A program made the position numbers and the translations under genes. This document shows, one piece after another, positions 30,441 through 50,341 of a stretch of 64,000 nt of DNA (its first letter is position 1; every line of letters starts with the position of its first letter). Below the pieces are notes generated by a model. It searched no databases. It saw nothing but the letters and a program-made list of their open reading frames with translations, and was not told the origin of the DNA. The stretch covers positions 2,232,001 to 2,296,000 of the forward strand of contig NZ_CP129992.1 of assembly GCF_030505615.1 (NCBI RefSeq), in the 5' to 3' direction. This DNA comes from Salinibaculum rarum. GTDB taxonomy: Archaea; Halobacteriota; Halobacteria; Halobacteriales; Haloarculaceae.

Positions 30441-30885
30441 TGGTTGGGTGGGTGACGTGCCGTGTCCAGAACTCGACTGCGGCGGCGACCATCCGAATGT
30501 ACTCGTCGGGGTCTGGTGGCTTGGTTACGTAGGCATTTGCTGACGATTCGTAGGCGCGTTTGATGTCTTCGCGGTTCTCGGAACTCGAAACGATGACCAC
30601 GGGGACGGTCTGAAATGCCGTCTCGTTGCGCACCGTCGCGAGTACTTCGAAGCCCGACTTGCCTGGAAGATTCAGGTCCAGCAATATCAAATCTGGCTGA
30701 TCGTTCGGCGAGTCGGCACCGAGTGTCGTGAGCTGTTCGACTGCCTGCTGTCCGTTGCTGATAACTTCGAGGTCGAGGTCGGCGTCTGCTGTGTCGACGC
30801 CTTCTCTCAGCAGCCGGATGTCCGCAGGGTTGTCCTCGATAACGAACACACGAGGGAGCGAGACGTCTGCCGTTTGGTCAGTCAT
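30433..30885 (-). CDS. Single-domain response regulator (Rcp1-like)
   Basis: 150 residues, one receiver domain only. Acidic pair in VIEDNPADIRLL, phosphoacceptor Asp in ILLDLNLPGKSGFE, switch residues VSSSEN and Lys in YVTKPPDPDEY. The extended stretch before LILLDLNLP is typical of the Rcp1 group that partners phytochrome-like kinases. With no output domain it probably passes phosphate between the giant kinase upstream and the hybrid downstream; it overlaps both genes by 8 nt. Confidence 0.9.
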   Translation of the reverse strand: MTDQTADVSLPRVFVIEDNPADIRLLREGVDTADADLDLEVISNGQQAVEQLTTLGADSPNDQPDLILLDLNLPGKSGFEVLATVRNETAFQTVPVVIVSSSENREDIKRAYESSANAYVTKPPDPDEYIRMVAAAVEFWTRHVTHPTNE

Positions 30886-33800
30886 CTATATCAGTTCCTC
30901 CAGGGAGTGTCACGGTGAACGTCGAGCCCTCACCTGGTGCAGACTCGACAGAAATCTGGCCGCCGTGTCGGTCGACGACCTTCCGACAGATGGACAGGCC
31001 GATTCCCGTCCCGTCGAATTCTTCGCGGGTGTGGAGCCGCTGGAACACCTCGAATATCTCGTCCGTTTGGCCGTCTTCCATGCCGATTCCGTTGTCGGTT
31101 ACCTCGAAGGTGACCATCCCGTCGTCGTGGCTGGCCCGGATGTCGACCCGCGGGGTGTCCGTATTGTACTTGATGCCGTTCTCGACGAGATTCTGGAACA
31201 TCTGGACGAGCTGGCTGGGGTCACCGGTCACAGACAGGTCGGCCGTCGGCGTCGTGACGGTGGCATCCGTTTCCTCGATGGTCAGTTTCAGATTGTCGGT
31301 GACACGTTCAAACAGCGTCGGGACATCGACTGACTCGAACGACTGACCGCGCGTGTCGACTCGCGAATACGCCAGCAGTGCCTGAATCATCTTGCGCATC
31401 CGGTCGGCACCGTCGACGGCGAAGTCGATGAACTCGGTAGCGTCGTCGTCGAGTTCGTCCCCGTACCGCCGTTCCAGCAGCGTGAGGTAACTCGATACGG
31501 TCCGGAGCGGTTCCTGCAAGTCGTGAGAGGCTGCGTAGGCGAACTGCTCGAGTTCCTCGTTGGACTGTTTGAGTTTCCGCTGGGTCTCGCGCAGCACCGA
31601 CTCCCGCTCGGCACGGCCCAGTGCTGCCTCGACTGTTGCCGACAGCACCTCAAGCAGACTCTGGTCCGTCTCCGAAAAGGCCTGCTGATCCGTCGAGCCA
31701 GCACTTAGCAGACCGTACTCTCCGAACGGGACGATGACTTCGGCCTGGAGGTCGGTCTGCTCGTCGTACAGGCCGTCGGTCTCTCCCAGGTCATCGTACA
31801 CCCTGATTTCGCCGGCCTGGAATGCGTCGTAGGCCAGGGAGTTCCCCTGCTCGAGGGTCGGTTGCTCGGAAAAGAGCGCGTCGGCCTCGGCGGTCATACA
31901 CTCGGGAACGAGCGTATCGGTCGATTCGTCGTACCACCAGACGCCGTTTTCAGGCATGTCGAGAACCGACTTCGCGCTCTCGACGGTGATGGCGGCGATT
32001 TCTTCCCGCGATGGCGCCGCCATGAGCTGTCTTGCCGTGTCGTTCATCTCCTGTAACTTCGTCTCGAAAGCGTCGCTGGTGAGTTCGTAGCTGACCCACT
32101 GGACGAGCAATTCGACGAAGGCACGTTCCGTATCACTGAACGCGTGGTCTCGGCTCGCCTGGTCTGCGAAACAGAGCGTCCCGTACTGGTCGCCGTCGAC
32201 GACAACAGTTTCGCCGATGTAACAGCCGAGATCGAACCGTTCGTAGGCCGGGTCGCCGTCCCAGCCCTCGGCAGCGGCGTCCTGAATGTCGAGGACACTG
32301 TCCTGTTGGATTGTCTTTCGGCAGTACGACTCGGATTTCGGTGCCACTGCTCCGGTCTGGAGTTGCGGGTGAGAGCCGACAGCCTGGACCACTCGCTGTG
32401 TCTCGTCGTCGATTCGGGTCAGGAACCCGTACGGAAGTCCGAGCCGTTCGGTCCCGAGTTCGAGCAGCGCCGCGAGCTTTTCGTCGAACTCTCTCTCGGT
32501 CCCCGAGGCGATGTCCGTGAGTTCGCGAAGCGACCGCTCGCTCTCACGGAGTGTGGCTTCGAGGCGCTTTTGCTCTGTAATGTCGATGAGATAGCCGAGA
32601 TAGTGCGTAATCTCGCCGTCGGTCCGAACAATCTTGGTGTTGTCAGTGACCCACCGTGTCTCGCCGGATGCAGTAATCATCCGGTAGGGCTCGTGACTGA
32701 ACCGGTCGGTCGTTCCGTCGCTCTGTGTCTCGACTTCGTTTGCGACGCGCTCGATGTCGTCGTCGTGAACGAGGTCCGTGTATGGGACCTCGCCAGACTG
32801 GAGTTGCTCGGGCGTGTACCCGAACGTCTCGGTGACGTTCTCGGAGACGTACTCGACCGGCCAGCCCTCGCCGGTTTCCCATTTGAACACGACTGCCGGC
32901 CCCGATGCGAACATATCCCGTTCCTCTTCGAGCGCCAGTTCCGATTGCTTCTGGTCTGTGATGTCGAGGTGTATCCCGACGGCACGCGAGGGATTGCCCT
33001 CGCTGTCCCGTTCGACGACTTTGCCGACGTCCCGTATCCACTTCCAGTCGCCATCTTTGGTCTGCATCCGGTGTTCGCAGTCGTACAGCTCCGCCTCGCC
33101 GGCGATGTGTGCATCGAGTTTTTGTTCGACACGCTCCATGTCAGCCGGATGCACGCGCTGTTCCCACGTGTCGATATGGCCGTCGAGTTCCTCGAGTGAG
33201 AAGCCGAGCATCGCTGCCCACTGTTCGTTGAACGTGACGGCGTCTGTGTCCATATCCCAGTCCCAGATGCCGAGTTTCGCGCCTTCGACAGCCAGGTCGA
33301 GTCGCTCTTTGACATCGCGGAGTTCCTGTTCCCGTTGTCGGCGCTCGGTAATCTCCTGGAAGATGCCCCGGACACCGACGACCGCCCCGTCGTCGTCGAA
33401 CTGCGGGTCCCCGACCGCTCTGACCCATCGAACGCGGTCGTCAGCGGTTACAATCCGGAGTTCGAGGTCGTACGGCTCGCCGTCAGTCGTCAACCGATCG
33501 AACGCGTCCCGTATCGTTGCCCTGTCCTTTGGATGGTAGAACTCGAATCCATCGTCCAGACTCACATCAGCGTCCGTCGGAAGGTCGTGGATACGATACA
33601 CTTCGTCGGTCCAGGTCACCGTCTCTGCGGTCAAATCCACTTCCCAGCCGCCGATGGAGGCACTCTCCTGTGCTTTCTCGATGAAATCACGGCTTCGCTT
33701 GAGTTCCGCTTCGCGTGCCTTTCGGTCGGTAATGTCACGGTCGACGGCGATGAAACGCTCTGACCCGTTGACGTCTACCTTGTTGACCCAGACCTCGACG

Positions 33801-36049
33801 GGGAAGGTCTCGCCGTCTTTCCGCTCGTGTTCCCCCTCGATTTTGAGCGTGTCGCCCTCTTCGAGTTGGTTCCACACTGCTTTGAGTTCTGCCCGGTCGA
33901 TTCCGGACTCGAACTCCGAGACGTTCATCGAGAGGAGTGTCTCACGGCCGTACCCCAGTGTCTCGGTTACTGTTTCGTTCACGTCGAGGATGGTCCCTTC
34001 GGCGTCGTGGACGACAATTCCGTCGGGCGATTTGTCGAACAGGGCGCGGAGTCGCGTTCGCTGGCGTTCCAGTTCCTGTTCACGGCGTTTTTGCTCGGTA
34101 ATATCCCGGTTCGTGCAGATGAGCTTCCCATCGTCGAGCAGGGAGAGTGTTATTTCCTGGTTGACGGCGGTTCCGTCGCGTGTGTGTCCAACCGTCTCTC
34201 CCCGCCACTCTCCGTCTTCTGCAAGTACCGGGAACACCTCTTCTTCGAGTCGCTCGACTTCCTGTTCTCCGTAGAGCTGTTGCCACTCACTCCCGAGGAG
34301 TTCCTCGGGGTCGTACCCAAAGATGTCGGCGTGCGATTGGTTCATGTAGACGTACTCGCCGTCGTCGAGAACGGCGATGCCGTCCATCGAAGCCTCCATC
34401 GCCTCCGCCTGGAGTTCGATTTCGGCGTCGCGCTCTTTGAGGCTCGTGATGTCGGTTGCGACACCGAGGACTGCATCTTTTTCGTGGTCGACGGGGTCGT
34501 ATGGAATCTTCGTCGTCTGCAACACCAGTTCCTCACCATCGGCGGTCGTCAGTGGCTCCTCGGGAATCTGCTTGGGTTCCCCAGAGTCGATAACGGCGAT
34601 GTCGTCTTCCCGGAACTGTTTTGCCTCCTCTTTGGACTCGGCGAAGTCAGCATCGGTCGCCCCTTCGAGTTCCTCGACGGTGGTCCCGTAGGCATCGGCA
34701 ATCGCCTGGTTGGCCAGCAGAAACTCGCCGTCTCTATCCTTTGCGAACACCAGCTGTGGCAGCATATCGATGATCTGGCGCAAGCGCTCGCGATTCGCGG
34801 CCGCCCGCTCGCTGCTCCGCTGTCGGCTCAGTTCCTTCCCGACCCACTGTGCGAACACGCGCACGAGCGTCCGTTCGCTCTCGGAAAATGGCTTCTGGCG
34901 GGGTTGTTCCCCGGAGAAGTTTAGCGTTCCGTACAGTTCGCCCTCGACGACGACCGGTGCGCCGATGTAGGTGGGGGTCTGTTCGTGCAAGTTGGGGCCG
35001 TCGGGTTCGTCTTGACCACTACGCCCAGTGACGGCGAACAGTTCGCCCTCCTCGGCGATGCGGTCACAGTAATTCTCACTGACGGCGAAGCGGTCGCCCT
35101 GCTCGATTGTACCGTCGGACGCGCTGACGTGTTCGACAGCACACTCCTGACCCTGGTGGTTCGACAGCAGTCCCACATCGAGTCCAAAATGGGTGCGCCC
35201 CAGTTCGAGCAGTGCTTCGACCTGTTCATCGAAGCCGCGCTCCTCGTCGGTCGAGATCTCGTGGAACGTTCGGAGCGTGTCGTTGCGGGCTTCTATCGTC
35301 TGTTGGTATTCGACACGCGCGCTAATGTCTCTAATCGAACCGAGAAAGGCGAGGGTCTTGCCGTCGGGACCTTTGAGCGACGTGCCCAGCGTTTCGCCTT
35401 CGAACGTCGTGCCGTCGGCTCGAGCGTACTCCGTGATGTACGTCTCGTCGCGTTCTGGCGCGTTGACGTTGAATCGTTGCTCGCCCTGTCTCTCGTAGTC
35501 GTCGGGGTCCGCATAGAGGATTTCTGCCTTCTCACCGACCACTTCGCTGGCATCGTACCCGAACAGCCGTTCTGCGGCAGGATTGAACTCCGTTATCCGG
35601 CGGTCAGTGTCGGCGACCACGAGTGCATCTTCGGTTTCGTCGAAGACTGTTTCGAACAGCCGTCGCTTGCGCTGTAAATCGAGTTGGTCGCCGCGTTCGT
35701 CCGTAATATCGTAGAAACACGCCGTCAGACCGCCCTCTGTGGGATAGATGCGAACTTTGAACCAGCGCTCGGCTGTGTCGGCGTAGCTGTCAAACCTGAC
35801 CGGGCGCTGTGTCTCCATCGCGTGTCGGAGTTTTTCCCCGATTTGCTCGCCTTCGATGGCTGGGACCGTCTCCCAGAGATTCGCACCGAGAAGTTCCTCC
35901 GGCGTGTGCTCCAGCATTGCCGCGGCCTGGTCGTTGACAAAAGTGAACTGCCACTCGTCGTCGAGGGCACACACCGCTTCGTCGACCCGCTGTAAGGCCT
36001 TGGTTGCTGACTCGTCTCGTAATGAATGTGTCTCAGTATCCGTACTCAT
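30878..36049 (-). CDS. Giant multi-PAS/GAF sensor histidine kinase
   Basis: 1723 residues with no obvious transmembrane segment, so probably cytoplasmic. From the N-terminus I count two PAS, one GAF, six more PAS, two GAF, then HisKA and HATPase. PAS/PAC ends are marked by repeats such as DITERRQRE, DITDRKARE, DITEQKRRE. GAF domains carry SYC or NYC motifs. The phosphorylated His is His1509 in ASHDLQEPLRTVSSYL, the bacteriophytochrome-type H box; the ATPase has NGIKYN, DNGIGM and GTGIGLSI. Ligands are unknown; none of these PAS domains shows the LOV cysteine. Overlaps neighbours by 4 and 8 nt. Confidence 0.92.
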   Translation of the reverse strand: MSTDTETHSLRDESATKALQRVDEAVCALDDEWQFTFVNDQAAAMLEHTPEELLGANLWETVPAIEGEQIGEKLRHAMETQRPVRFDSYADTAERWFKVRIYPTEGGLTACFYDITDERGDQLDLQRKRRLFETVFDETEDALVVADTDRRITEFNPAAERLFGYDASEVVGEKAEILYADPDDYERQGEQRFNVNAPERDETYITEYARADGTTFEGETLGTSLKGPDGKTLAFLGSIRDISARVEYQQTIEARNDTLRTFHEISTDEERGFDEQVEALLELGRTHFGLDVGLLSNHQGQECAVEHVSASDGTIEQGDRFAVSENYCDRIAEEGELFAVTGRSGQDEPDGPNLHEQTPTYIGAPVVVEGELYGTLNFSGEQPRQKPFSESERTLVRVFAQWVGKELSRQRSSERAAANRERLRQIIDMLPQLVFAKDRDGEFLLANQAIADAYGTTVEELEGATDADFAESKEEAKQFREDDIAVIDSGEPKQIPEEPLTTADGEELVLQTTKIPYDPVDHEKDAVLGVATDITSLKERDAEIELQAEAMEASMDGIAVLDDGEYVYMNQSHADIFGYDPEELLGSEWQQLYGEQEVERLEEEVFPVLAEDGEWRGETVGHTRDGTAVNQEITLSLLDDGKLICTNRDITEQKRREQELERQRTRLRALFDKSPDGIVVHDAEGTILDVNETVTETLGYGRETLLSMNVSEFESGIDRAELKAVWNQLEEGDTLKIEGEHERKDGETFPVEVWVNKVDVNGSERFIAVDRDITDRKAREAELKRSRDFIEKAQESASIGGWEVDLTAETVTWTDEVYRIHDLPTDADVSLDDGFEFYHPKDRATIRDAFDRLTTDGEPYDLELRIVTADDRVRWVRAVGDPQFDDDGAVVGVRGIFQEITERRQREQELRDVKERLDLAVEGAKLGIWDWDMDTDAVTFNEQWAAMLGFSLEELDGHIDTWEQRVHPADMERVEQKLDAHIAGEAELYDCEHRMQTKDGDWKWIRDVGKVVERDSEGNPSRAVGIHLDITDQKQSELALEEERDMFASGPAVVFKWETGEGWPVEYVSENVTETFGYTPEQLQSGEVPYTDLVHDDDIERVANEVETQSDGTTDRFSHEPYRMITASGETRWVTDNTKIVRTDGEITHYLGYLIDITEQKRLEATLRESERSLRELTDIASGTEREFDEKLAALLELGTERLGLPYGFLTRIDDETQRVVQAVGSHPQLQTGAVAPKSESYCRKTIQQDSVLDIQDAAAEGWDGDPAYERFDLGCYIGETVVVDGDQYGTLCFADQASRDHAFSDTERAFVELLVQWVSYELTSDAFETKLQEMNDTARQLMAAPSREEIAAITVESAKSVLDMPENGVWWYDESTDTLVPECMTAEADALFSEQPTLEQGNSLAYDAFQAGEIRVYDDLGETDGLYDEQTDLQAEVIVPFGEYGLLSAGSTDQQAFSETDQSLLEVLSATVEAALGRAERESVLRETQRKLKQSNEELEQFAYAASHDLQEPLRTVSSYLTLLERRYGDELDDDATEFIDFAVDGADRMRKMIQALLAYSRVDTRGQSFESVDVPTLFERVTDNLKLTIEETDATVTTPTADLSVTGDPSQLVQMFQNLVENGIKYNTDTPRVDIRASHDDGMVTFEVTDNGIGMEDGQTDEIFEVFQRLHTREEFDGTGIGLSICRKVVDRHGGQISVESAPGEGSTFTVTLPGGTDIDD

Positions 36050-36939
36050 TGCTGTCTCTGTAGGGTGATTCGTTCGAGCGTTTCGGGGTCGGCCGCTTCG
36101 ATGTCCTCGCTGGTCGCATCGAGGTCATCGATACGTTCCTGAAGCCGCTGGTACTCTTCGCTCTCCTCGAGCGTCTGGGGCGAGCGTTCGGCTTCGAGTA
36201 GCGCCTGCTTCGACCTGAGCGCGAGGTACTCCTGTATCTGTGACCCGTACTCACGACGCTCGAACAGGTCGGCGACGACGTCCCGGAGTTCGTCTTTGAG
36301 GACGGGTTTGGTGAGATACTCGTCGAAGTTTATCTCGAGGACATCGAGGTTCGGTTCTTCGGCAGTGACCATGACGACGCGGATGTCGTACCCCTGTGTC
36401 CGAATCCAGTCGAGCACTTGCTCGCCGGAGAGCCCGGGCATCCGTCGGTCGAGGACGACGACACCGACGTCGGTGTCGAGACTCCCGAGTGCTTCCTCGC
36501 CATCGCTTGCCGTCCGAACAGTGTAGTCGTCCTCCAGCCAGGCTTCGTGCATTGTCAGGAATCGCTCGTCGTCGTCGGCAACGAGGACGACCTGTTCTGT
36601 GTCGGGGTTCCTGAGGTAGGTTTCGCCCCAGTCGGCAAGCGAGTCGATTATCCCGTCGAGTTCTTTGCCCCGTCCGGTCAGCGTGTAATTGACCCGCAAC
36701 GGGCTCTGGCTGAGTTCCTCCCGCTCGATGATTTCGTACTCTTGGAGTTCCTCCAGTGCGTCGGTGAGCACCTTCGCAGAGACGCCGTCAAGCCGGTCCT
36801 CGATGTCGCTGTATCCAAGTCCGTCACTATCTGCCAGGCAGCGGACGACCGCAGGATGCCACTTCTTCGAGAGAAGTGACACGCTATCGAGAAGATACTC
36901 GGGTGCACTCGGTTCGTCGGGTGAGTGCCGGTTAGACAT
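36046..36939 (-). CDS. HxlR-type winged helix fused to receiver and HalX domain
   Basis: 297 residues. Residues about 15-108 resemble the HxlR winged-helix DNA-binding domain (SLLSKKWHPAVVRCLADS, VLTDALEELQEYEIIER). Residues 115-225 are a receiver with ADDDE pocket, phosphoacceptor Asp164 (VVLDRRMPG), and Lys211 (YLTKPV). The C-terminal 65 residues look like HalX, a coiled helical domain seen after haloarchaeal receivers. A DNA-binding domain placed before REC-HalX is unusual. It is the likely transcriptional output of the phosphorelay operon. Confidence 0.88.
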   Translation of the reverse strand: MSNRHSPDEPSAPEYLLDSVSLLSKKWHPAVVRCLADSDGLGYSDIEDRLDGVSAKVLTDALEELQEYEIIEREELSQSPLRVNYTLTGRGKELDGIIDSLADWGETYLRNPDTEQVVLVADDDERFLTMHEAWLEDDYTVRTASDGEEALGSLDTDVGVVVLDRRMPGLSGEQVLDWIRTQGYDIRVVMVTAEEPNLDVLEINFDEYLTKPVLKDELRDVVADLFERREYGSQIQEYLALRSKQALLEAERSPQTLEESEEYQRLQERIDDLDATSEDIEAADPETLERITLQRQQ

Positions 36940-36946
36940 AAATTAC

Positions 36947-37444
36947 TTACAGGTTATCAGCAGATAAAGATTCTGACGGGAACTGCGCCCACTCGAACCA
37001 GAACCGGCTAAACGACCCGAGCAGGTCAGCGCACGCGTCCCGACACTCCGGTGCCGTGACGTGTGCATTGCCGCCATGCTCGGTGACTACGGTTGCGTCT
37101 GTCTCGTCTGCGGTGACCACGACGGTGGGAACGGGTTCGAGACGCGGACTCGATTTGATTGCATTGAGAAGCGTCGTCCAGTCCGGTGATTCGAAGCCAC
37201 CCCCCAGGACAATCAGGTCCGGAACGCCGTCGTCTGTCGATGCGGTCGTTTCGGTCAAGCGCTCGATTGCCTGCTCGCCATCGGTGACGACATCGACAGT
37301 GACTGGATAGTCTTCGAAGGAGTCGGAAACCGTATCAGGAGGTATCGGTTCCGTCCCGACGAACAGAACGGTGCGCTCTCTTGCACCTCGGATGGGTCCA
37401 CCGTCGACAGTCGATTGTTTCCCTGGTGTAGAGTCACCAAACAT
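36947..37444 (-). CDS. Degenerate receiver-like protein
   Basis: 165 residues that follow the receiver fold but lack the chemistry. The strand opening reads LFVGTEP where two acids are expected; the phosphoacceptor position is Gly81 (LIVLGGG) and the conserved Lys is Ala131 (VTAPE). The Thr/Ser switch is kept (VVVTAD). It cannot take phosphate on Asp and may act as a decoy or scaffold. First gene of the five-gene minus operon, 7 nt before the HxlR regulator. Confidence 0.78.
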   Translation of the reverse strand: MFGDSTPGKQSTVDGGPIRGARERTVLFVGTEPIPPDTVSDSFEDYPVTVDVVTDGEQAIERLTETTASTDDGVPDLIVLGGGFESPDWTTLLNAIKSSPRLEPVPTVVVTADETDATVVTEHGGNAHVTAPECRDACADLLGSFSRFWFEWAQFPSESLSADNL

Positions 37445-37534
37445 ATGTGCTATATGAGGATGAGATGACCAGAGGGCAAGTATTGTCGCACACCCTGAGA
37501 GTAGCTTCTACTTACTTCCCGGTTAGCGAATTCA

Positions 37535-37690: not shown

Positions 37691-40567
37691 ATGGATTCCT
37701 CAAAACCATCCGGAACCGACTCCGTGGGTTCGCTTCAAATTCGTTCCGACGCTCTGGAACGGGTTTCTGACGCCGTCCTGTCTTTCGATGAACACAACCG
37801 CTACACATACGTCAACGAACGGGCTGCGGAAATCCTCGATGTCGACGCCGACTCACTCCTCGGAGAGCACATCTGGGATGGGTTTGCAACTTCGCAGGGA
37901 AGCCAGCTCCAGGATGCCATCGAGCGAGCGACTCGACTCGACCGCGACATCGATATCGAATGGCACGATTCGGGGCTAGACTGTTGGTTCGAAGGTCAAA
38001 TCTATTCCGACGAAACAGGACTTTCGCTTTTCTTTGATGAAGCCACAGAGCAAGGAACGCGCCACCAAGACCTGGACCGAGCGGAAACGCTGTTCCAGAA
38101 CGCACAGGACGGGTTGTTCGTTATCGACGTCGAAAAGCAGGGCGAGCGATTCCGCGTCAATCGCGTCAATCAGGCCTACGAGGCGCTCACTGACACGTCA
38201 GTCGACGAGCTACAGGGGAAAACGATTCGTGACCTTGCTGATGAGCACGACAGCGCGGCTGTTCGCGAGAAATACGAGGAGTGCATGCGTCGGCGCGAAG
38301 AGCTACGGTACGAAGAACAACTGTCGATTTTTGGTGACACGTCACGGTGGGAAACGAGCATCTCACCAGTCATCATCGACGACGAAGTCGTGCAACTCGT
38401 TGGCTCCACGCGGAATATTACCGACCGAGTAGAGCGCGAGAGCCAACTGCGCAAGTACGAACAGATAGTGCAACAGACCGGTCACGCCGTGTTCTCGACG
38501 GACGCCGATGGCGAGATTCAGTACGTGAATCCGGCATTCGAGAAAATGACTGGCTATACGAGCGGTGAGGCGCTCGGGGAGACACCGTCGCTACTCAGTT
38601 CCGGTGAGCACGACGATGCGTTCATTGCCGACCTCTGGGAGACCGTTCTCGCAGGGAACGTCTGGCACGGCGAAATCGTAAACGAACGCAAAGACGGGAC
38701 ACAGTTCACCACTCGCCACACGATTGCACCAGTGACCGACGAATCAGGTGCAGTGACGAATTTCGTGGCAATTTACGATGATATCACTGAGCGGAAGGAA
38801 CGCGAAGAAGAACTCCGTGAAAAGACGCGGGCACTCGACAAGGCCCCCGTCGGAATCTCGATTGTCGACCCATCGCAGGACGATGAGCCACTGACCTACG
38901 TCAACGATGCGTACAGCGAGATAACTGGGTACGACGAAGACGAGGCCGTCGGGCAGAACTGCCGATTTCTCCAGGGCGAAAGAACCGACCCCGAACAGGT
39001 CGGACAAATCCGTGCGGCGGTCGACGACGCTACCTCGGCCGAGGTGACCTTGCGAAATTATCGGAAGGATGGGACCGAGTTCTGGAACCAGTTATTGGTC
39101 GCTCCTGTGAGAGACGACGACGGGACACTGGAGAGTTTCGTCGGGTTCCAGAAGGACGTCACCAAACGACGGGAGCGCGAAGCGGAAATTCAAACCCACC
39201 TCGTCCAGGCCCAGGAAGTCGGTCACGTCGGCAGTTGGTACCTGGAGATAGAGGAGGGCACGCTCTCATGGTCGGACGAATGCTACCGGATATTCGGGCT
39301 GGACCCGGACCAACCGATGACCTATGACCGGTTTCTGGAGTTCGTTCATCCCGACGACCGCGAAAATCTCGAGAACGCCTGGCACGCCGCACTGGACGGC
39401 GAGCCTTACAACGAGAAACACCGAATCGTGGTGGACGGAGAAATCAGGTGGTTACACGAAACGGCCGAAATCGAATTCGACGACGACGGCCACCCAGTGA
39501 ACGGTATCGGCGTCGTTCGAGACATCACTGACCAGATAGAGCGTGAACGGAAAATTAACGAGCAGAAGAGACGCTACGAGTCGTTGTTCAACAGCATCCA
39601 GGACCCCATTGTCGTAACAGACGAGACCGGCCGGATTACCAATGGAAATCCAGGGTTGACTGAACTCTTCGGGTACGAACTGGACGACCTCGAGGGGCAG
39701 TCGTTGCGGACACTGGTCGCAACCGAGGAAGACAGCCTGGAGCTACGAGACCAATCCGAAGAAACGAAAAGCGAACTCCGGAACACGGTCAGGGCCGGGT
39801 ATCAGAAAAAATGCGGGCAGGAGTTCACAGGCGAGACGACTATCTCCCAGGTTCAAAACTCCGGAGGCGATGCTGTCGGCTTCATCTATCAAATAAGGGA
39901 TGTTTCAGACCGAGAGCGGAACACCCAGCAGTTGAAAGTCATCGACCGAGTGCTTCGGCACAACATCAGGAACAACATGAATGCGCTCATGGGTCACGCC
40001 GAAATCGTCCAGTCCAAGGGTTCAGGCAATGTCCAGCCCCACGTCTCGAAGATTCTCGAGGTGAGCCAGGACTTTGTCAGGATGGCCGAAAAGCAGCGGA
40101 AAATCACGACAGTGCTAACGGACCCTCCAGCCGGCGGTGTGCGTGACATCGTTCCGACAGTAGAATCGGTCATCACGGAGATTGAACGGCAGCATCCAGC
40201 GGCCGACATTAGTGTGAGTCTTCCCGAGACGTGTCAGGTACTCGCAACGCCTGACCTCGACAAAGCGTTCCGCGAACTGCTCAAGAATGCAGTCGTCCAC
40301 TCGGACAGCGAGTATCCGAGCGTGACTGTCGATGTCTGGACCGAAGATGGCACCGCCACGGTCAGTATCTCCGATGATGGACCCGGAATTCCAGAGTCAG
40401 AATGGAAAATCATCACCCAGGACGCGGAGATAGACCAGCTGTACCACGGGAATGGGCTCGGTCTCTGGCTCGTCAGAGAGATTATCCGACAATCCAACGG
40501 GTGGTTAACGTTCGAACAGAACAGTTCGACGGGTAGTACCGTAACCGTTCATCTCCCGACCGAGTAA
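37691..40567 (+). CDS. LOV/multi-PAS sensor histidine kinase
   Basis: 958 residues, cytoplasmic. About six PAS-type domains: roughly 20-125, 130-250, 255-375, a LOV domain about 378-500, then about 505-620 and 630-740. The LOV domain has GQNCRFLQGE with Cys424, the flavin-adduct cysteine, then NYRKDGTEFWNQ and GFQKDVT, which supply the Asn and Gln contacting FMN. The kinase core has His757 (RVLRHNIRNNMNALMGHAE) and ATPase motifs NAVVHSD, DDGPGIPE and GNGLGLWLV. By family knowledge it should sense blue light. It diverges from the five-gene phosphorelay operon. Confidence 0.92.
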   Translation: MDSSKPSGTDSVGSLQIRSDALERVSDAVLSFDEHNRYTYVNERAAEILDVDADSLLGEHIWDGFATSQGSQLQDAIERATRLDRDIDIEWHDSGLDCWFEGQIYSDETGLSLFFDEATEQGTRHQDLDRAETLFQNAQDGLFVIDVEKQGERFRVNRVNQAYEALTDTSVDELQGKTIRDLADEHDSAAVREKYEECMRRREELRYEEQLSIFGDTSRWETSISPVIIDDEVVQLVGSTRNITDRVERESQLRKYEQIVQQTGHAVFSTDADGEIQYVNPAFEKMTGYTSGEALGETPSLLSSGEHDDAFIADLWETVLAGNVWHGEIVNERKDGTQFTTRHTIAPVTDESGAVTNFVAIYDDITERKEREEELREKTRALDKAPVGISIVDPSQDDEPLTYVNDAYSEITGYDEDEAVGQNCRFLQGERTDPEQVGQIRAAVDDATSAEVTLRNYRKDGTEFWNQLLVAPVRDDDGTLESFVGFQKDVTKRREREAEIQTHLVQAQEVGHVGSWYLEIEEGTLSWSDECYRIFGLDPDQPMTYDRFLEFVHPDDRENLENAWHAALDGEPYNEKHRIVVDGEIRWLHETAEIEFDDDGHPVNGIGVVRDITDQIERERKINEQKRRYESLFNSIQDPIVVTDETGRITNGNPGLTELFGYELDDLEGQSLRTLVATEEDSLELRDQSEETKSELRNTVRAGYQKKCGQEFTGETTISQVQNSGGDAVGFIYQIRDVSDRERNTQQLKVIDRVLRHNIRNNMNALMGHAEIVQSKGSGNVQPHVSKILEVSQDFVRMAEKQRKITTVLTDPPAGGVRDIVPTVESVITEIERQHPAADISVSLPETCQVLATPDLDKAFRELLKNAVVHSDSEYPSVTVDVWTEDGTATVSISDDGPGIPESEWKIITQDAEIDQLYHGNGLGLWLVREIIRQSNGWLTFEQNSSTGSTVTVHLPTE

Positions 40568-40785
40568 CCATCTCGGCAGACGATTCTGACTGACCGACGT
40601 TTTCACACTGGAACTCTCCGTGTGTCTCGGGGCTGGTTTGCGAACTTGTCCTACAGTTGAAACTCGAACTCGACTCAATCGGATGTCCTTCTCTGACCGA
40701 CGACGCACTTACCAGCAGGTAACTCCCTGGCTCACCTATCAGTTCGCTTTCGCTTAAGGGATGTGGTCGCCCATCGTAGTACGTA

Positions 40786-41397
40786 ATGACACAACTGACG
40801 AAGACGCTACTCGTGGCCGGCATCATCCTCGTTGCAGGGGTTTCTGTCGGGACGAGTGCATTTACGAGTGCGACGGTCGAAAGGCAGGCAGACGCGAACG
40901 TGGTCGCTGACGAGAACGGCCTGCTCGGACTCACCGACGGTAACTCGGGGAACCTGGTCTACCAGAATGCGGCAGACCAGCTCGCGATCAACTTCACGCA
41001 AGGCACTGCCACCGGTGCGAACACTGACGCGCTGTTCGAACTCGGGAACCCGGCGGCCCCTGGGACCTCCAAAGCATTCCAGGTCACGAACAACGACGCC
41101 GAGTCCCACCAGATAACTGCCGCGTACACGCTCGACGCTGACGATGGCAACACTGTGGCGAACCTCGAGTTCCAGGTGTACGACAACACCGGAGCGCTCG
41201 TCGGTACGGTCACCGAAGAGGGACAGACCGTCTCGATGGACGCTGCCGCCGCTGAAACCTACGACGTCGTCGTTGTCGTGGATACGGGCCACGGGACCGG
41301 GACTGATACGCTGACCTCGGCCAAAGACCTCTCCGGGACGCTCGCGCTGACCATCGACGACGTCGACGAGGGTGGAACGGTCTCCGACGGGTCGTAA
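40786..41397 (+). CDS. Secreted DUF1102-like envelope protein
   Basis: 203 residues. A signal peptide or N-terminal anchor (LLVAGIILVAGVSVGTSAF, residues 8-26) leads to the motif AFTSATVERQADANVVADEN, then a predicted beta-rich domain with few Lys and many Thr, Asp and Gly. The motif just after the hydrophobic stretch resembles that of TasA/camelysin proteins cut by SipW-type peptidases. A SipW-like gene follows 71 nt downstream. The protein at 42524 carries the same motif. Function inferred: subunit of an extracellular fibre or surface layer. Confidence 0.75.
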   Translation: MTQLTKTLLVAGIILVAGVSVGTSAFTSATVERQADANVVADENGLLGLTDGNSGNLVYQNAADQLAINFTQGTATGANTDALFELGNPAAPGTSKAFQVTNNDAESHQITAAYTLDADDGNTVANLEFQVYDNTGALVGTVTEEGQTVSMDAAAAETYDVVVVVDTGHGTGTDTLTSAKDLSGTLALTIDDVDEGGTVSDGS

Positions 41398-41468
41398 TCC
41401 TCTCGCTAACGACGGATAGACCGATTCTCGGTTCTCCCCTTTCGAACAACACCAAATTTCAGTAACAC

Positions 41469-42527
41469 ATGATACAGAAAGCCGGCATCGTCGTCTTCTT
41501 GCTCCTCGTGGTCGCGATAGCCGCGCCGGCCGCCTCACCCGCCGGCATTTCGTACGTCTCATCTGACAGCATGTCGCCGACGCTCGACACCAACGACGGA
41601 TACGTCCAGGTCCCGTCCGGAATCGTCGAACGCGGTGACATCATCACATTCTATTCCGAGGAGCGAGAGTCCTACGTGACCCATCGGGCGATGCAGGTCA
41701 CGCCGGACGGCATCGTAACCAAGGGCGATGGAAACCCCTCGACCGACCAGGCCGCCGGCTACCCGCTCGTTCAGCAGTCTGACGTGTCCGGGAAACTCCT
41801 GACTGTCGGTGACGGTCCTGTCGTCATCCCCCAACTTGGCACTGCACTCGGTGCGATTACGGATTACTGGTATCTCATCGTGGCGGCCCTCGGTGCGTAC
41901 CTCCTGACTGCTGGCCTCCGCTCTGACAGGCGACGGTCACGGGAGAATCTCCTGCGAAGCCGGCAAGTCGTCCTTCCGGTAACGGTACTCGTCATCGTCG
42001 CGGGCGTCGCGTTCGTCTCGCTGGGCGGCTTCCAGCAGACGCAAGTCTACACTGTCACTGACGAGCCAACAAACAGTTCGGCGACGCTGACAGTCGGCGA
42101 ACCGCGCACTGAAACGTTGACACTCGAGTTGACAGCATCGCCGCTTGCCCACGTCGTGACGGAGACTGACGGGATGGAAGTTGTCAACATCACGCCGACG
42201 GACGCGAGCGGCGGTGCGGTGACTTCGCCGTCGAATCGCCTGCCACAGGAACTGTTCGACACCTCCGAGCAGACGGTCGATATTCGGATTCCATCACAGC
42301 AGACGGCAGGCCCCCACCCGACCAGCATCCGTATCGTTACCTACCCAGCAGTCCTTCCGGGTGGAATCATCAACGCGCTCCACGGTGTCCACCCATTCGT
42401 TGCCGCAGTGACGACCGTCTTGCTGAGCATTGCTCCGCTGTATCTCCTGTACTGGTTGCTGACTGACCCGACGACGCCGCTTCGAGGAACGCGGCGTCGA
42501 CTGATGCGGAAACTGGGTGACCGATGA
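41469..42527 (+). CDS. SipW/ER-type signal peptidase I
   Basis: 352 residues. The N-terminal third is a type I signal peptidase: catalytic Ser34 in SDSMSPTL, and His72 in YVTHRAM replacing the bacterial Lys, as in archaeal, ER and SipW enzymes; TKGDGNPSTDQA holds the conserved Asp region. Hydrophobic segments lie at 5-22, about 130-150 and about 165-185. A large extra beta domain (about 195-300) and a C-terminal helix (about 310-330) are beyond the usual enzyme. Position between two proteins with matching N-terminal motifs suggests it is their dedicated peptidase. Overlaps the next gene by 4 nt. Confidence 0.87.
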   Translation: MIQKAGIVVFLLLVVAIAAPAASPAGISYVSSDSMSPTLDTNDGYVQVPSGIVERGDIITFYSEERESYVTHRAMQVTPDGIVTKGDGNPSTDQAAGYPLVQQSDVSGKLLTVGDGPVVIPQLGTALGAITDYWYLIVAALGAYLLTAGLRSDRRRSRENLLRSRQVVLPVTVLVIVAGVAFVSLGGFQQTQVYTVTDEPTNSSATLTVGEPRTETLTLELTASPLAHVVTETDGMEVVNITPTDASGGAVTSPSNRLPQELFDTSEQTVDIRIPSQQTAGPHPTSIRIVTYPAVLPGGIINALHGVHPFVAAVTTVLLSIAPLYLLYWLLTDPTTPLRGTRRRLMRKLGDR

Positions 42528-43486
42528 TGGGGCCGCCTCGTCGCTCCCGGTCACGCTCCCGCAGTCGACGCAGCCTCTGGCTGAGCGTCGTGGGTGCGGT
42601 TGTACTCGTCGCTATCGTCGGTCCGTTCGCTGGTGGCCCCTCGGACGCGTTCACCAGCGGGACGCTTGACCGTTCCTCGTCGGTCGGCGTCGCCGACGAT
42701 GCCAACGCGCTCGTGGGACTCGACGTCTCGTCGTCGGTGGCTGCCGGCAGTTCCTCCCGACTCGTCACCGTGACCAACCAGTTCGAGAACACGGTGACTG
42801 CGACGGTCTCACTCCAGGGATCGCCGGGGTCGCTGTCGAACGCCCAGGCCACGCTCGCACCCGGCGAGTCCCTGACGACGAGCGTCTCTGTCGACTGTGA
42901 CTCTCCGCCCGACACCGTCTCGTTTACCGTCTCTGCAACCGATCGTTCGCGGGTCACCGCGACAGCAACCCGGGAGACGGCTGTCGACACCTCGGACTGT
43001 CTGGCCACCACGGGACCATTCGTGTTCCGCTCCGGGTCGGCGACGACCGGTAGCTTCTCCGGGCCGGGCGGCACCTCGACTGGAAGTCTCGAATTCTCAA
43101 TGCAGAACACGGCGTCGACAGCCAACACGATTGTCGGCTTCGAGCTTGAGAAGGCGGGCACTGCGACAGCCCTCTCGTTTGACGGGCCACCGCCAGTGAA
43201 CGTCGAAGCCGGCAAAGACGAGGTGTACATCGACGCGAACGGAGGGCCAACGGACAGTGAAGGCGCGGCTGAAGCGAGCAAGAACGACCCCGGCTACGAC
43301 ATCGGAACTGGGACAACGTACACTCTCGACCAGTCGGTGACGGTCGACGCTGGCGAGACCGCATCCGTAGCGTTCTACCAGTTCGTTTCGAACGGACAGC
43401 CAGATGGGTTCACCACGGGTGACGAAGTGGTGGTTACCTTCTCCCTTCAGGATGGCTCAGAATCGACGGTGTTGGTCACTGTCTGA
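42524..43486 (+). CDS. Second secreted beta-rich envelope protein
   Basis: 320 residues. A basic start (Arg/Ser repeats) and hydrophobic segment (LWLSVVGAVVLVAIVG, residues 18-33) are followed by DAFTSGTLDRSSSVGVADD, the same motif as in the protein at 40786. The body is Ser/Thr-rich with many predicted beta strands and a pair of cysteines (VDCDS and TSDCLA). It resembles secreted haloarchaeal proteins of unknown role. It begins 4 nt inside the signal peptidase gene, so the two are co-translated. Role as a fibre or matrix subunit is inferred. Confidence 0.75.
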   Translation: MMGPPRRSRSRSRSRRSLWLSVVGAVVLVAIVGPFAGGPSDAFTSGTLDRSSSVGVADDANALVGLDVSSSVAAGSSSRLVTVTNQFENTVTATVSLQGSPGSLSNAQATLAPGESLTTSVSVDCDSPPDTVSFTVSATDRSRVTATATRETAVDTSDCLATTGPFVFRSGSATTGSFSGPGGTSTGSLEFSMQNTASTANTIVGFELEKAGTATALSFDGPPPVNVEAGKDEVYIDANGGPTDSEGAAEASKNDPGYDIGTGTTYTLDQSVTVDAGETASVAFYQFVSNGQPDGFTTGDEVVVTFSLQDGSESTVLVTV

Positions 43487-43609
43487 CCGGCTATCCCGGC
43501 TTTCCTCGCAGTAAGTCTCCCACCAACAGGAGCGTTAGCTCCTGCTTTTCTACCCATCTGGCATTTGTACTGGTATGAGCGAGGACACCACCAAGGGGGC
43601 CGACGTCGG

Positions 43610-44767
43610 ATGAGCTGGGACCTGCCACTCCGAGCGCGCTATCTCTGTGGCCGGTACGAGCGCGTACTCGTCGCGGCATTTATGGTAGTCAGTGCTATCG
43701 CATTCGCTGGTGGGGCCGCTGCGGCAGTCGCGCCGACCGAGACCCAGCAGGTCACAGCACAGACCGAGGCACAGAGTATCAACACTACACTCACGACGCA
43801 TGCGACGGTGACCGGCGATACGACGCTTTACGAGTCTGACGAGCGCCTCACTGATATGCCGGTGTATTTGCTCTCTGCGACGCCAAACGTGACCTTCCTG
43901 GCCACGACGACGGTTCCGTCCGTAGAGACGACGGTTAGCCAACAGCTCGTCCTCGAACTGACTGCAACCAGGAACGGGGAGATGTTCTGGCAGAACCAGA
44001 CGACATTAGCCTCGGAAACAAAGCGTGTTACTGACGGACAGGCACGAACGACTGCCACGCTGGATATCCAGGAACTCACTCGCGAACGACTGGCAGCAAC
44101 GACGGACGCCACCGACGGCGTCGGAACCATCCAAGCACGGGTGTTCGTCGATACCACCTACGATACCGGGAGCCACACCGGCTACACGAACGCGAGTACG
44201 GCACTGTCCATCACGGACCGGGCGTACGAACTCGACACGCCCCAGACATCCCAGCAGAGTCACGCGACGGCAGTGACGAAGACAGTGCCAGTTTCCGAAT
44301 CGACAATCGGTCTTGCGGGCCTCGAAATTCCCAGCCGAGCAGTCGGCTGGACCGTTGTCGGGCTCGTTGCTCTCGTGGTTGCTCTCGTGGTCTGGTTGAC
44401 CGCCAGTCGCATCGAGGACTTCGAGGCATTCGAGAAACAGTACGAGAAAGTCAGGTACGCGGAGTGGATCTCCCAGGGGAAAATCCCTGACTCTGGGTCC
44501 TATGTCCGTGTGCCGGTCGAATCGTTGCTCGACCTCGTCGACATCGCCATCGACTCGAAAAAGCGCGTCATTCACGACCAGTCCCGAGAGGTCTACGCCG
44601 TCGTCGATGGGAACATCCTGTTCGAGTTCCGCAACGACGCCAGCAATTCCGGGTGGATGAACGAGTTCGGTCTCGCACCGATGGACGAGATGGCACCACC
44701 ACAGGAGTTCACGGAAGCCAAGTCGACGATACCGGACGGCGGTGAACAGGAGCCTTTCGACTGGTAA
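43610..44767 (+). CDS. DUF5305 membrane-anchored protein
   Basis: 385 residues. It has an N-terminal helix (RVLVAAFMVVSAIAFAGGAA, about 20-39), a large extracellular domain (about 45-240) with several Asn-x-Thr sites, and a second helix (VGWTVVGLVALVVALVVWL, about 243-261). A cytoplasmic tail of about 120 residues follows (EAFEKQYEKVRYAEWISQG). The pattern fits DUF5305, found with signal peptidases in haloarchaea. A 12-codon ORF at 43575-43613 ends across this ATG (gATGA), a possible coupling leader. It closes the cluster beginning at 40786. Confidence 0.78.
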   Translation: MSWDLPLRARYLCGRYERVLVAAFMVVSAIAFAGGAAAAVAPTETQQVTAQTEAQSINTTLTTHATVTGDTTLYESDERLTDMPVYLLSATPNVTFLATTTVPSVETTVSQQLVLELTATRNGEMFWQNQTTLASETKRVTDGQARTTATLDIQELTRERLAATTDATDGVGTIQARVFVDTTYDTGSHTGYTNASTALSITDRAYELDTPQTSQQSHATAVTKTVPVSESTIGLAGLEIPSRAVGWTVVGLVALVVALVVWLTASRIEDFEAFEKQYEKVRYAEWISQGKIPDSGSYVRVPVESLLDLVDIAIDSKKRVIHDQSREVYAVVDGNILFEFRNDASNSGWMNEFGLAPMDEMAPPQEFTEAKSTIPDGGEQEPFDW

Positions 44768-47427: not shown

Positions 47428-47721
47428 ATGTCTGAAGGAGAATCCCGGCGGATCGCGCACGAGCTGATGAGCGAGCCCCACATTCATGGCCGCCGGGTCA
47501 GCGTCCGTCAGGTGTACGCCCTGGTCGAAGGACGTGATGAAGACCCCGAGGCTGTTGCCGATCGGTACGATCTCGACGTAGCCGACGTGTACCACGCGCT
47601 GGCTTACTATCACGATCACCCGCGTGAGATGCATACCGTAGAGCAGGGGCGCGAAGGCGCCATGGAAGACTTCCGCGAGTCAATCGATCGTCCCGAAGGG
47701 GTCGATCCGGACGCCGCCTGA
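47428..47721 (+). CDS. DUF433 antitoxin
   Basis: 97 residues. DUF433 winged-helix-like pattern with HIHGRRVSVRQVYALVEGRD (about 18-37) and VADRYDLDVADVYHALAYYH (about 44-63). Such proteins pair with DUF5615 PIN-like toxins, and that gene follows with one intervening nucleotide. It should bind its own promoter and neutralise the toxin. The unit lies between repeat copies 1 and 2. Confidence 0.85.
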   Translation: MSEGESRRIAHELMSEPHIHGRRVSVRQVYALVEGRDEDPEAVADRYDLDVADVYHALAYYHDHPREMHTVEQGREGAMEDFRESIDRPEGVDPDAA

Positions 47722-47722
47722 G

Positions 47723-48067
47723 ATGAGCGGGTGGCGCTTTTTGTTGGATGAGAATATCGACCCGAAGACGGCAACGTATTTGCAGAAGGAAGGACTCCAC
47801 GCTGAGCACGTCCGTGATGCGCTCTGGCAGGGAGCCGATGACGAAGCGGATGTCCTTCCGTATGTCCGAGAACACGAACTGATTATCGTGACGAGTGATG
47901 TGAAAGATTTCGGTGGATTACCACCTGACGCCCACTCAGGTATTGTTCTCCTCTACGATGATACGCTGCCCGCGTACCAGGTTGCGGCTGGCCTTATTTC
48001 AATGACCGACGCGTACCAGAAGCGATATTCGTTTGGTGGGCGTGAAGAACTCGATCCATGGGTTTGA
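47723..48067 (+). CDS. DUF5615 PIN-like toxin
   Basis: 114 residues. PIN-like motifs: FLLDENIDP at the start (acidic residues of the active site), DEADVLPYVREHELIIVTSD, then DVKDFGGLPP, giving the third acidic set. Predicted to be a ribonuclease of the DUF433-DUF5615 toxin-antitoxin type. Its ATG follows the antitoxin stop with a 1-nt gap. The next repeat copy begins about 50 nt downstream. Confidence 0.85.
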   Translation: MSGWRFLLDENIDPKTATYLQKEGLHAEHVRDALWQGADDEADVLPYVREHELIIVTSDVKDFGGLPPDAHSGIVLLYDDTLPAYQVAAGLISMTDAYQKRYSFGGREELDPWV

Positions 48068-48114
48068 ACAGATGTGTTGATTTCGCGTATTTGAGTGCCT
48101 CAAGTCAGTTAATA

Positions 48115-48169
48115 CACTTTCACCAGGCCTACTAGTAGATTTTCGTCCGGTAGTGTTCCGGGCGTACAT
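48115..48169. repeat. Palindromic cassette repeat, copy 2
   Basis: Contains the perfect palindrome CTACTAGTAG (48129-48138), then an imperfect hairpin CGTCCGG-TAGTGTT-CCGGGCG (48144-48164) and TACAT. It separates the DUF433/DUF5615 unit from the Doc unit. Confidence 0.8.
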
Positions 48170-48271
48170 CCTTTCGACAGTATCGGTCATCACCCGAACT
48201 AATGTGTTACTCCGGGAATCGTTCATTCGTAGAGAGAAAACGATAGGGTAGTCGGATGCGAACCTCCGATA

Positions 48272-48760
48272 ATGACCGACTCGTTTTGGTATCCGTCGGT
48301 CGAAGACATCCTCGACATCCACGAGGATATTGTCTCGGAGTATCCCGACACCAGCCCGGGAGTCCAGCGCCGCGGCGACATTGAGTTCGCACTGGAGTAC
48401 GACAGAGAAGGTAGCTTCGGGTCGGTTCCGGAGACGATCCACGAGAAGGCGTTTTACCTGCTTCGGCTTCTCGTCGCTAACCATCCGTTCGTGGACGGAA
48501 ACAAGCGCACCGCACTCAACGTGGTGGTCGTATTCTACCTGCTCAATGGATATCGGTTCGAGTACGATGACGAAATCAGGAAGATACTGAAGCAGTTCGG
48601 AACGGACGAGAGAGCTGTCGATGAGGACGGCGTGCTTGAATATCTTCGAGCACACACGACCGAAGTCGCTCTGAACGAAGTGGTCGAACGATGGCGAGGC
48701 GACCTCGTCGAGTATGGACTTGAACAACTGTCCGACGAATCATCGGACCCGAACGATTAA
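48272..48760 (+). CDS. Doc/Fic-family toxin
   Basis: 162 residues with the Fic motif HPFVDGNKRT (His71 catalytic), in the form with NKR typical of Doc. Doc toxins phosphorylate elongation factor Tu; Fic relatives AMPylate targets. Length and the downstream helix LNVVVVFYLLNGYRF match Doc-type death-on-curing proteins. No Phd-type antitoxin lies upstream; instead a 46-residue ORF follows 25 nt later. Flanked by repeat copies 2 and 3. Confidence 0.85.
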   Translation: MTDSFWYPSVEDILDIHEDIVSEYPDTSPGVQRRGDIEFALEYDREGSFGSVPETIHEKAFYLLRLLVANHPFVDGNKRTALNVVVVFYLLNGYRFEYDDEIRKILKQFGTDERAVDEDGVLEYLRAHTTEVALNEVVERWRGDLVEYGLEQLSDESSDPND

Positions 48761-49058: not shown

Positions 49059-50341
49059 CTCGACTCTGCACGTTTATAAACTGCCCTCAGAATGGAGAAA
49101 GAGGTGGTCGATGTCTTCCATCAGTCCATCGAGATCGCGGTCTGGTTGATCGCGCACCCACGAAAACATGTTGTAGATCGTCTCCTTGAGACCGTGTTCG
49201 AGTTGTGATCGGAGCGACGAGGCTTTCGAGACAAGTCGCTCCGAGGCGCTCGGTTCCGGACCAAGCCGAAGAAGGCTGTAGGCCAGCATCTGAAGGTGCC
49301 AGTGACGACTGGCACCGTCAGAATCACGAACCTCGCAGTCTCCTAAGCCAAGATCCTCTTTCGAGTCCTCGAAGAATGTCTCTACTCGCCATCTGTACGA
49401 ATAACTCCGAATAATGTGTGCCGAAGGCGCGTCAATCTTGTTTGTTGCGAGGTACTTGACCGGATTCTCGTCGTCCTCATCGGTAACCTTCTCTGTGATT
49501 ACCAGCCGAACCTCACCTAATTTCGAGATAGGGACTGTCTTAGTCCAGATTTTACGTTTCACCGTCAACTTCTCGCTCTTCCTTGTCGATGCACTCTTCG
49601 AGCGCATCGACGCGTCTCTCTTTGTTCGCGTAGGTCACCTGTCGGTTGCCCCGTAGTGGTCCAATCCAGTCCTTGCCGTGTGATTCGACGTGTTCGATCA
49701 GACCGGAGTCATGAGCAAACCATGCATCGAAGAGGTAGGTGTCCGCAGGCACACCTACCTCTTCTTCTAATTCTGTGATTATCTCTCGTGCGAGGTCGTA
49801 TTTTGTCTCCTGTTCGTCTTCCTCGTCCTCGTCGTCGGCCTTCTCGTACTGGCGAAAAGCAAGTGGATAGGACGTTTTCTCATCGGTATAGAACGCGTAG
49901 ACGAGGTTCTGTCCCCAAACAGGCTCACCCTCAGAGTGATCGTAGAACTCTCCAGCACCGGGAAGAGACTTCCCGGTTCGCTGGATAACTGAATCGTCAA
50001 TAACGATGTAGCCGTCTTGTGACCAGCGTGTCTCTCCGTGTTTTTGCAGTTCCTCTAACCGCTCGTGATTGAGCTGATCCTCATCCCAATCGTATTCAGT
50101 GATGAACTTGTTGAGTGCTCGGTCACTTCCGGCGGGAAGGACCTCTCGTGCAATTCCGGTTACAGTCTTGCTGCGGCCCGCAGCAAGACCTGTCACGTAC
50201 GTTTTGGCGTGAGTCGTTTGATGATATGATAGCGAGTCGAATTCATCCAGCACGTCGGTGCACGAGAGGAAATCCGTAATCGGCAGCATCAGGTTTCAAT
50301 GCTGCCTACACCACGCCCCTACTTAAACGTGCAGAGCCGAG
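49059..50341 (-). mobile_element. IS4-superfamily insertion sequence, 1283 bp
   Basis: The ends carry near-perfect inverted repeats: CTCGACTCTGCACGTTTA (49059-49076) and, on the opposite strand, CTCGGCTCTGCACGTTTA (50324-50341). The element is flanked by identical 7-bp target duplications CAAATAA (49052-49058 and 50342-50348). One transposase gene fills it, with its stop codon inside the left repeat. Insertion split repeat copy 3. Confidence 0.9.
49074..50289 (-). pseudogene. IS4-superfamily transposase, frameshifted
   Basis: Two overlapping reading frames on the minus strand, 50289-49552 (245 residues) and about 49607-49074, together make one transposase of about 400 residues. The first has the catalytic Asp regions (IVIDDSVIQRTGK and LFDAWFAHDSG); the second has YSYRWRVETFFEDSK, which fits the IS4 Y(2)R(3)E(6)K signature exactly. 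The break is near 49573-49580, where one extra base (or two missing) shifts the frame. It could be mutation, sequencing error or a programmed shift. Confidence 0.85.

Follow-up and report, generated by a model that had tools for sequence, protein, structure and literature searches.

A Compact Haloarchaeal Operon with Features of a Donor-Strand Surface Fibre, a SipW-Type Signal Peptidase and a Tandem Palindromic Operator

Introduction

Donor strands join the subunits of archaeal threads, bundling pili, and bacterial TasA filaments (PMC9715654, PMC9674648). In the tapA-sipW-tasA operon of Bacillus, a dedicated ER-type signal peptidase stands between two secreted substrates that share an N-terminal motif, and the TapA and SipW genes overlap (PMC10151520). 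TasA carries a Phe at position P2′ of its cleavage site, a feature that SipW accepts and the general signal peptidase of E. coli handles poorly (PMC10269814). Closer to the haloarchaea studied here is the cluster of Natrinema gari (locus L132) encoding a protein identical to the PDB 'Pilin' chain 9P0A, together with the Taf families of NCBIfam; the biology of both is taken here from database names. The neighbours of the 9P0A gene encode an adapter-like protein, a SipW-type peptidase, and a DUF5305 protein. DUF1102-SipW-DUF5305 operons are also present in Thermococcus and Archaeoglobus, and no described function was found for them.

We analysed a stretch of 64,000 nucleotides of the Salinibaculum rarum genome (NZ_CP129992.1, positions 2,232,001 to 2,296,000; hereafter the window), in which four neighbouring genes encode a putative fimbrillin (P1), a signal peptidase, a second protein with the same N-terminal motif (P3), and a DUF5305 protein. 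The locus resembles each of the described systems in part. In the 9P0A cluster, genes for a SipW-type peptidase and DUF5305 accompany a fimbrillin whose entire mature core is homologous to P1. However, clusters of that type encode fimbrillins with Tat-like (RR) signals, DUF7344-like regulators, and adapters in genes of their own, whereas the window proteins have Sec-type signals and score far below the Taf cut-offs, and their genes have a four-gene layout and a different regulator and operator. The bundling pili (AbpA, Pyrobaculum) and threads (Saci_0406, Sulfolobus) are the top two fold matches of P1 and also have an N-terminal segment ahead of the beta-sandwich, but they show no sequence match to P1 and have a different gene neighbourhood according to the literature. 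As in Bacillus, an ER-type peptidase stands between two putative substrates with a shared motif and a predicted P2′ Phe, and the peptidase and accessory genes overlap; unlike in Bacillus, neither P1 nor P3 matches the TasA family, the peptidase has an extra TM-beta-TM domain, and a DUF5305 gene is present. The Thermococcus and Archaeoglobus operons show the same gene order and peptidase architecture, but usually encode two fimbrillins and have a DUF7344-like regulator upstream. We consider it quite likely that the four genes are a compact operon encoding a thin surface fibre, with donor-strand assembly, SipW-type processing, and shared control by a PAS kinase and an HxlR-receiver regulator.

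Operon Architecture and Distribution

All four ORFs lie on the plus strand, and their content and order are supported directly by the sequence. P1 (40786-41397, 203 aa) has a Sec-type signal, an AFTS motif at residue 25, and a predicted beta-sandwich. It is followed by the SipW-like peptidase (41469-42527, 352 aa) and by P3 (42524-43486, 320 aa), whose start overlaps the peptidase stop by 4 bp (ATGA); in most related operons, too, these two genes overlap or directly adjoin each other. The fourth gene encodes the DUF5305 membrane protein (43610-44767). The order P1-peptidase-P3-DUF5305 is found in about 20 haloarchaeal loci, with P3 not found in one compact-operon locus (G029), and the corresponding order of fimbrillin, SipW, P3, and DUF5305 is kept in Thermococcus and Archaeoglobus, preceded there by a DUF7344-like regulator and usually by two fimbrillins. 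The arrangement fimbrillin-SipW-P3-DUF5305 is a new, compact operon type.

The same genome contains one more fimbria-like cluster, which belongs to the other type (L017:3997-10434; C1:1040996-1047433) and encodes a fimbrillin with a Tat-like (RR) signal, two DUF7344-like regulators, a SipW with a beta domain, and a DUF5305 protein. RR signals are frequent on the fimbrillins of the common haloarchaeal clusters, and the P1 proteins of compact operons have Sec-type signals, so that one fimbrillin subunit family possibly uses two export routes. In two genomes, phage-integrase-like genes are located close to the compact operon (L054:439-1614 and L055:8355-9527), hinting at its mobility. Downstream of the operon, the window contains small genes that, judged by eye, look like a pair of antitoxin and PIN-like toxin and a gene for a Fic/Doc-like protein (47428-48760), followed by transposase-like ORFs (49074-50289). 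The start of the latter matches a longer single ORF of the same genome (L152:10534-11751; C1:2344533), and they probably represent an IS element that is split in the window.

P1 and Its Predicted Fold

When P1 and 80 relatives were combined into a profile, it matched the 'Pilin' chain 9P0A with E=9e-36, and the peptidase encoded beside 9P0A in N. gari has the same architecture as that of the window. Among the 81 aligned members, DUF1102, TafA, and TafE are matched by 39, 53, and 51 proteins, respectively; P1 itself has no PF06510 (DUF1102) match and scores below the curated Taf cut-offs (TafE, 18.5 vs 155; TafA, 16 vs 190). Comparisons were repeated without the first 45 residues, which contain the shared signal and motif region, and with reversed sequences as controls. 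The P1 core still matched the haloarchaeal fimbrillins (hhalign probability 98.2, E=4e-14, 127 columns), and P1-type cores matched the DUF1102 proteins of Archaeoglobus (93.6, 2e-7) and, weakly, those of Thermococcus (69, 4e-5), while reversed controls gave about 1%. Profile drift through the shared signal and motif can be ruled out as the source of P1 homology because the match persists without the first 45 residues. On sequence grounds, with mature-core homology and adjacent genes for a SipW-type peptidase and DUF5305, P1 is assigned to the archaeal DUF1102/Taf/9P0A fimbrillin superfamily, but not to the curated Taf equivalogs.

The AlphaFold2 model of P1, obtained with the 81-row alignment, is a beta-sandwich (pLDDT 86, pTM 0.78). 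A Foldseek search of the PDB placed the Sulfolobus thread 7PNB first (E=1.7e-5) and the Pyrobaculum bundling pilus 7UEG second (E=5e-5), and further matches include CS20, type 1, and Csu pili, all at modest TM-scores of about 0.4. The model shows no strand pairing for the presumed donor segment (residues 26-41). At these TM-scores, the model has the pilin beta-sandwich and the N-terminal segment expected of a donor-strand filament subunit.

The preliminary description had read the locus as a haloarchaeal extracellular fibre or matrix system following the logic of both TasA/SipW and bundling pili, with a TasA-like fold to be expected. The fibre reading and the bundling-pilus comparison are supported by the fold matches to 7PNB and 7UEG and by the kinship with the 9P0A pilin family, and the predicted P2′ Phe recalls TasA; the TasA part is not supported at the family level, since the nearest relatives of P1 are archaeal fimbrillins and TasA is absent among the 50 fold matches listed for it. 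It is extremely unlikely that the operon is a biofilm matrix system of the strict TasA/camelysin family, acquired from bacteria. The peptidase logic, the P2′ Phe, and a gene overlap like that of SipW and TapA would fit such an origin, but neither P1 nor P3 gave a sequence match to the TasA/camelysin family or to TasA structures in Pfam or the PDB, and the relatives found are archaeal. P1 and P3 also matched no Pfam fimbrial family, which counts against the fibre reading itself, and single-sequence PDB searches with P1, P3, and the peptidase returned nothing useful.

Signal Peptidase and Cleavage Site

The product of the middle gene exceeds the cut-off of TIGR02228 (53.4 bits), which identifies it as a signal peptidase of the archaeal/ER type, but it misses the cut-off of the NCBIfam SipW equivalog from Bacillus (25.5 vs 190 bits). 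Ser34 and His72 are invariant in 13 relatives, indicating Ser/His catalytic residues instead of Ser/Lys. Two C-terminal TM stretches (about residues 167-185 and 303-328) surround an extra extracytoplasmic segment of about 115 residues. These features agree with the earlier reading of the gene between P1 and P3 as an ER/SipW-type peptidase bearing an additional beta domain.

The motif common to P1 and P3, which had been noticed earlier after their hydrophobic stretches, proved to be specific. In its strict form, AFTS.T..R.{3,5}V.{0,2}[AD]D, it occurs in only two of the 375 window ORFs of at least 60 aa, namely P1 and P3, and in none of 200 shuffles of all those ORFs. BLASTP of P1 against P3 recovered it as a 45-residue match with E=2e-4.

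Across the aligned relatives, the column of P1 Phe26 holds Phe in 75 of 81 sequences. The residue two positions before this Phe is small (G/A/S) in 80 of 81, and the position immediately before it is occupied by A, N, D, T, or E. Signal peptidases generally refuse N, D, T, and E at cleavage position P1. Because the residue at -2 is small and that at -1 may be N, D, T, or E, the scissile bond most likely lies two residues before the conserved Phe, which would thereby occupy P2′ as in a SipW-type site; the assignment is a prediction from column statistics over the 81 relatives. The P3 protein of the window is atypical in that an Asp, a poor residue for cleavage position P1, precedes AF, so that its cut may fall one residue later. 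Cleavage had been expected at the shared motif, and the predicted bond does fall there.

P3 and Its Variable Domain

P3 is a TafC-like protein, putatively a minor subunit, in which the TafC profile, alignment, and model point to an Arg-rich N-terminal region, a TM segment, the AFTS motif, an Ig-like domain, and a swappable C-terminal domain. Residues 40-159 match the TafC profile with E=3.4e-10, at 39.6 bits and thus below the family cut-off of 410. Beyond the motif, the P3 core is only weakly related to P1, and its comparisons reached 71% at best. In sequence comparisons, P1-P3 homology is secure for the N-terminal region only, and drift driven by the signal and motif may still contribute for P3. 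The fold search with the P3 model gave generic multi-Ig matches only (sialidases, chaperones, and RbmA), which were set aside as a functional clue because they are not interpretable.

Only the N-terminal part of P3 is conserved across relatives. The window protein shares its C-terminal domain with L048, L070, and L072; L068, L069, and L071 carry a dissimilar one, and L073-L077 have no C-terminal domain. P3 is therefore modular, a new observation, with its N-terminal domain kept and its C-terminal domain swapped or lost, which in these alignments suggests a tip adhesin or a base/initiator subunit.

The confinement of secure P1-P3 sharing to the N-terminal region would also suit a different view, namely that P1 and P3 are non-polymerising beta-sandwich proteins, secreted or released from the membrane (for example, surface-coat or sensory proteins), which merely use a SipW-type peptidase. 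This is unlikely, given that the superfamily of P1 includes the pilin 9P0A, whose cluster has a similar set of genes, and that donor-strand pili stand at the top of the P1 fold search.

DUF5305, Operators and Regulators

The DUF5305 protein matches PF17231 with 126.7 bits (cut-off, 29) and has an N-terminal TM segment, an extracytoplasmic domain, a second TM segment, and a conserved cytosolic tail. Its proposed role as an anchor is a guess, as the two TM segments and the tail are equally compatible with an anchor, an assembly factor, or a sensor.

All eight A1 loci (the window, L048, L049, and L068-L072) carry paired 16-bp palindromes of the form STWAC-N6-GTWAS, one pair before P1 and another in the interval from P3 to DUF5305. 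Upstream of P1 in the window, palindrome 1 (CTTACCAGCAGGTAAC, 40708-40723) is exact, and palindrome 2 (CTCACCTATCAGTTCG, 40731-40746), at 23 bp from the first, is degenerate with two mismatches; its equivalent in L048, L068, and L069 reads CTAAC-N6-GTTAG. The two copies upstream of DUF5305 (43500-43515 and 43523-43538) form another 23-bp pair with one mismatch each, at the same positions as in relatives. The DUF5305 start is likely ATG 43610 (385 aa) rather than 43565, because only then do these operators sit at -102/-79, as in orthologues. A single exact palindrome lies at 37511-37526, in the gap that separates the divergent regulator genes from the gene of the upstream PAS kinase.

The spacing before P1 is 23 bp in the A1 loci, apart from 24 bp in L071. 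Overall, 16 pairs in these loci have the 23-bp spacing, compared with four for the next commonest, and no such pair was found in 924 kb of other loci. The pairs are absent from the more distant A2 operons (L073-L077). With up to two mismatches, the S. rarum genome (3.54 Mb) contains the pair at three places only: the P1 and DUF5305 promoters and a site (L152:6931-6969; C1:2340930) located 36 bp ahead of the gene for a 1120-aa PAS kinase, a paralogue of the window kinase at 37691. At up to three mismatches, the search was no better than a reversed-pattern control. In 146 genomes of relatives, with up to one mismatch, the pair occurs at nine places and the reversed control at none. Four of the nine belong to the operon neighbourhoods of G108 and G109, one lies upstream of the same HxlR-receiver/kinase module in G073 (L165:1-6139), a genome in which the compact operon was not detected, and four are near unrelated genes, with some such matches in G142, G143, and G039. 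The pairs seem to be a previously undescribed tandem operator that jointly switches on the operon genes.

Candidate regulators of the operon are encoded upstream of it. An HxlR-receiver-HalX regulator (36046-36939, minus strand), assigned by Pfam, is the candidate operator-binding protein. It is accompanied, in one conserved module, by a small protein of 165 aa with no Pfam match (36947-37444, minus strand) and by a large multi-PAS/GAF histidine kinase (30878-36049, minus strand), which has relatives in L048 (2357 bits), L049, L069, and L071. A multi-PAS histidine kinase identified by Pfam (37691-40567, plus strand) lies directly upstream of P1. Since relatives of the HxlR-receiver regulator, as of the small protein, stand beside the operon in L048, L049, and L069 as in the window, we infer that it binds the pairs. 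This link between operator and regulator is new and is one of gene neighbourhood alone.

The same neighbourhood evokes a surface-sensing circuit, in which the fibre would be mainly a sensory probe and the cytosolic tail of DUF5305 would report fibre attachment to the adjacent PAS kinases. DUF5305 has its own operator copy and a conserved tail, and kinase genes are near the operon in 6 of 10 type-A loci vs 3 of 34 other haloarchaeal loci. However, DUF5305 is also present in the other cluster type and in the Thermococcus and Archaeoglobus clusters, where these kinases are not seen, which makes such a circuit very unlikely.

Proposed Mechanism and Perspectives

The fibre model draws on the motif, the catalytic residues, the superfamily and predicted fold of P1, and the operator conservation, all supported by sequence; cleavage, polymerisation, and the subunit and regulator roles are what we infer. 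P1, in many copies, and P3, in few, would be exported with N-terminal signal anchors, and the ER-type peptidase of the operon would cleave them at the AFTS motif, either two residues ahead of the conserved Phe or directly beside it. The cut would free an N-terminal beta strand (F26...R33...V39 in P1), which would fill the groove left open in the following beta-sandwich subunit. P3 bears the same strand and could hence join the fibre; given its variable C-terminal domain, P3 is the likely tip adhesin or base/initiator. DUF5305 and the beta domain of the peptidase would remain in the membrane as a candidate anchor or assembly platform. The neighbouring PAS kinase and HxlR-receiver regulator would most likely co-control P1-peptidase-P3 and DUF5305 through the 23-bp-spaced palindrome pairs. 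A bolder version, which we regard as speculative and somewhat unlikely, is a minimal fibre machine in which the TM-anchored beta domain of the peptidase chaperones cut subunits onto the fibre base, P3 is an exchangeable tip adhesin, and a dedicated HxlR-receiver two-component switch acts on the tandem palindromes.

The fibre model would bring together two uncharacterised families, DUF1102 and DUF5305, and an unusual signal peptidase in a single fibre system that can be tested, extending from haloarchaea to Thermococcus and Archaeoglobus, with a four-gene minimal version available for reconstitution. In addition, the concrete operator/regulator pair would offer a handle on the expression of archaeal surface fibres, and the domain swapping of P3 suggests a route by which their adhesive ends may diversify.
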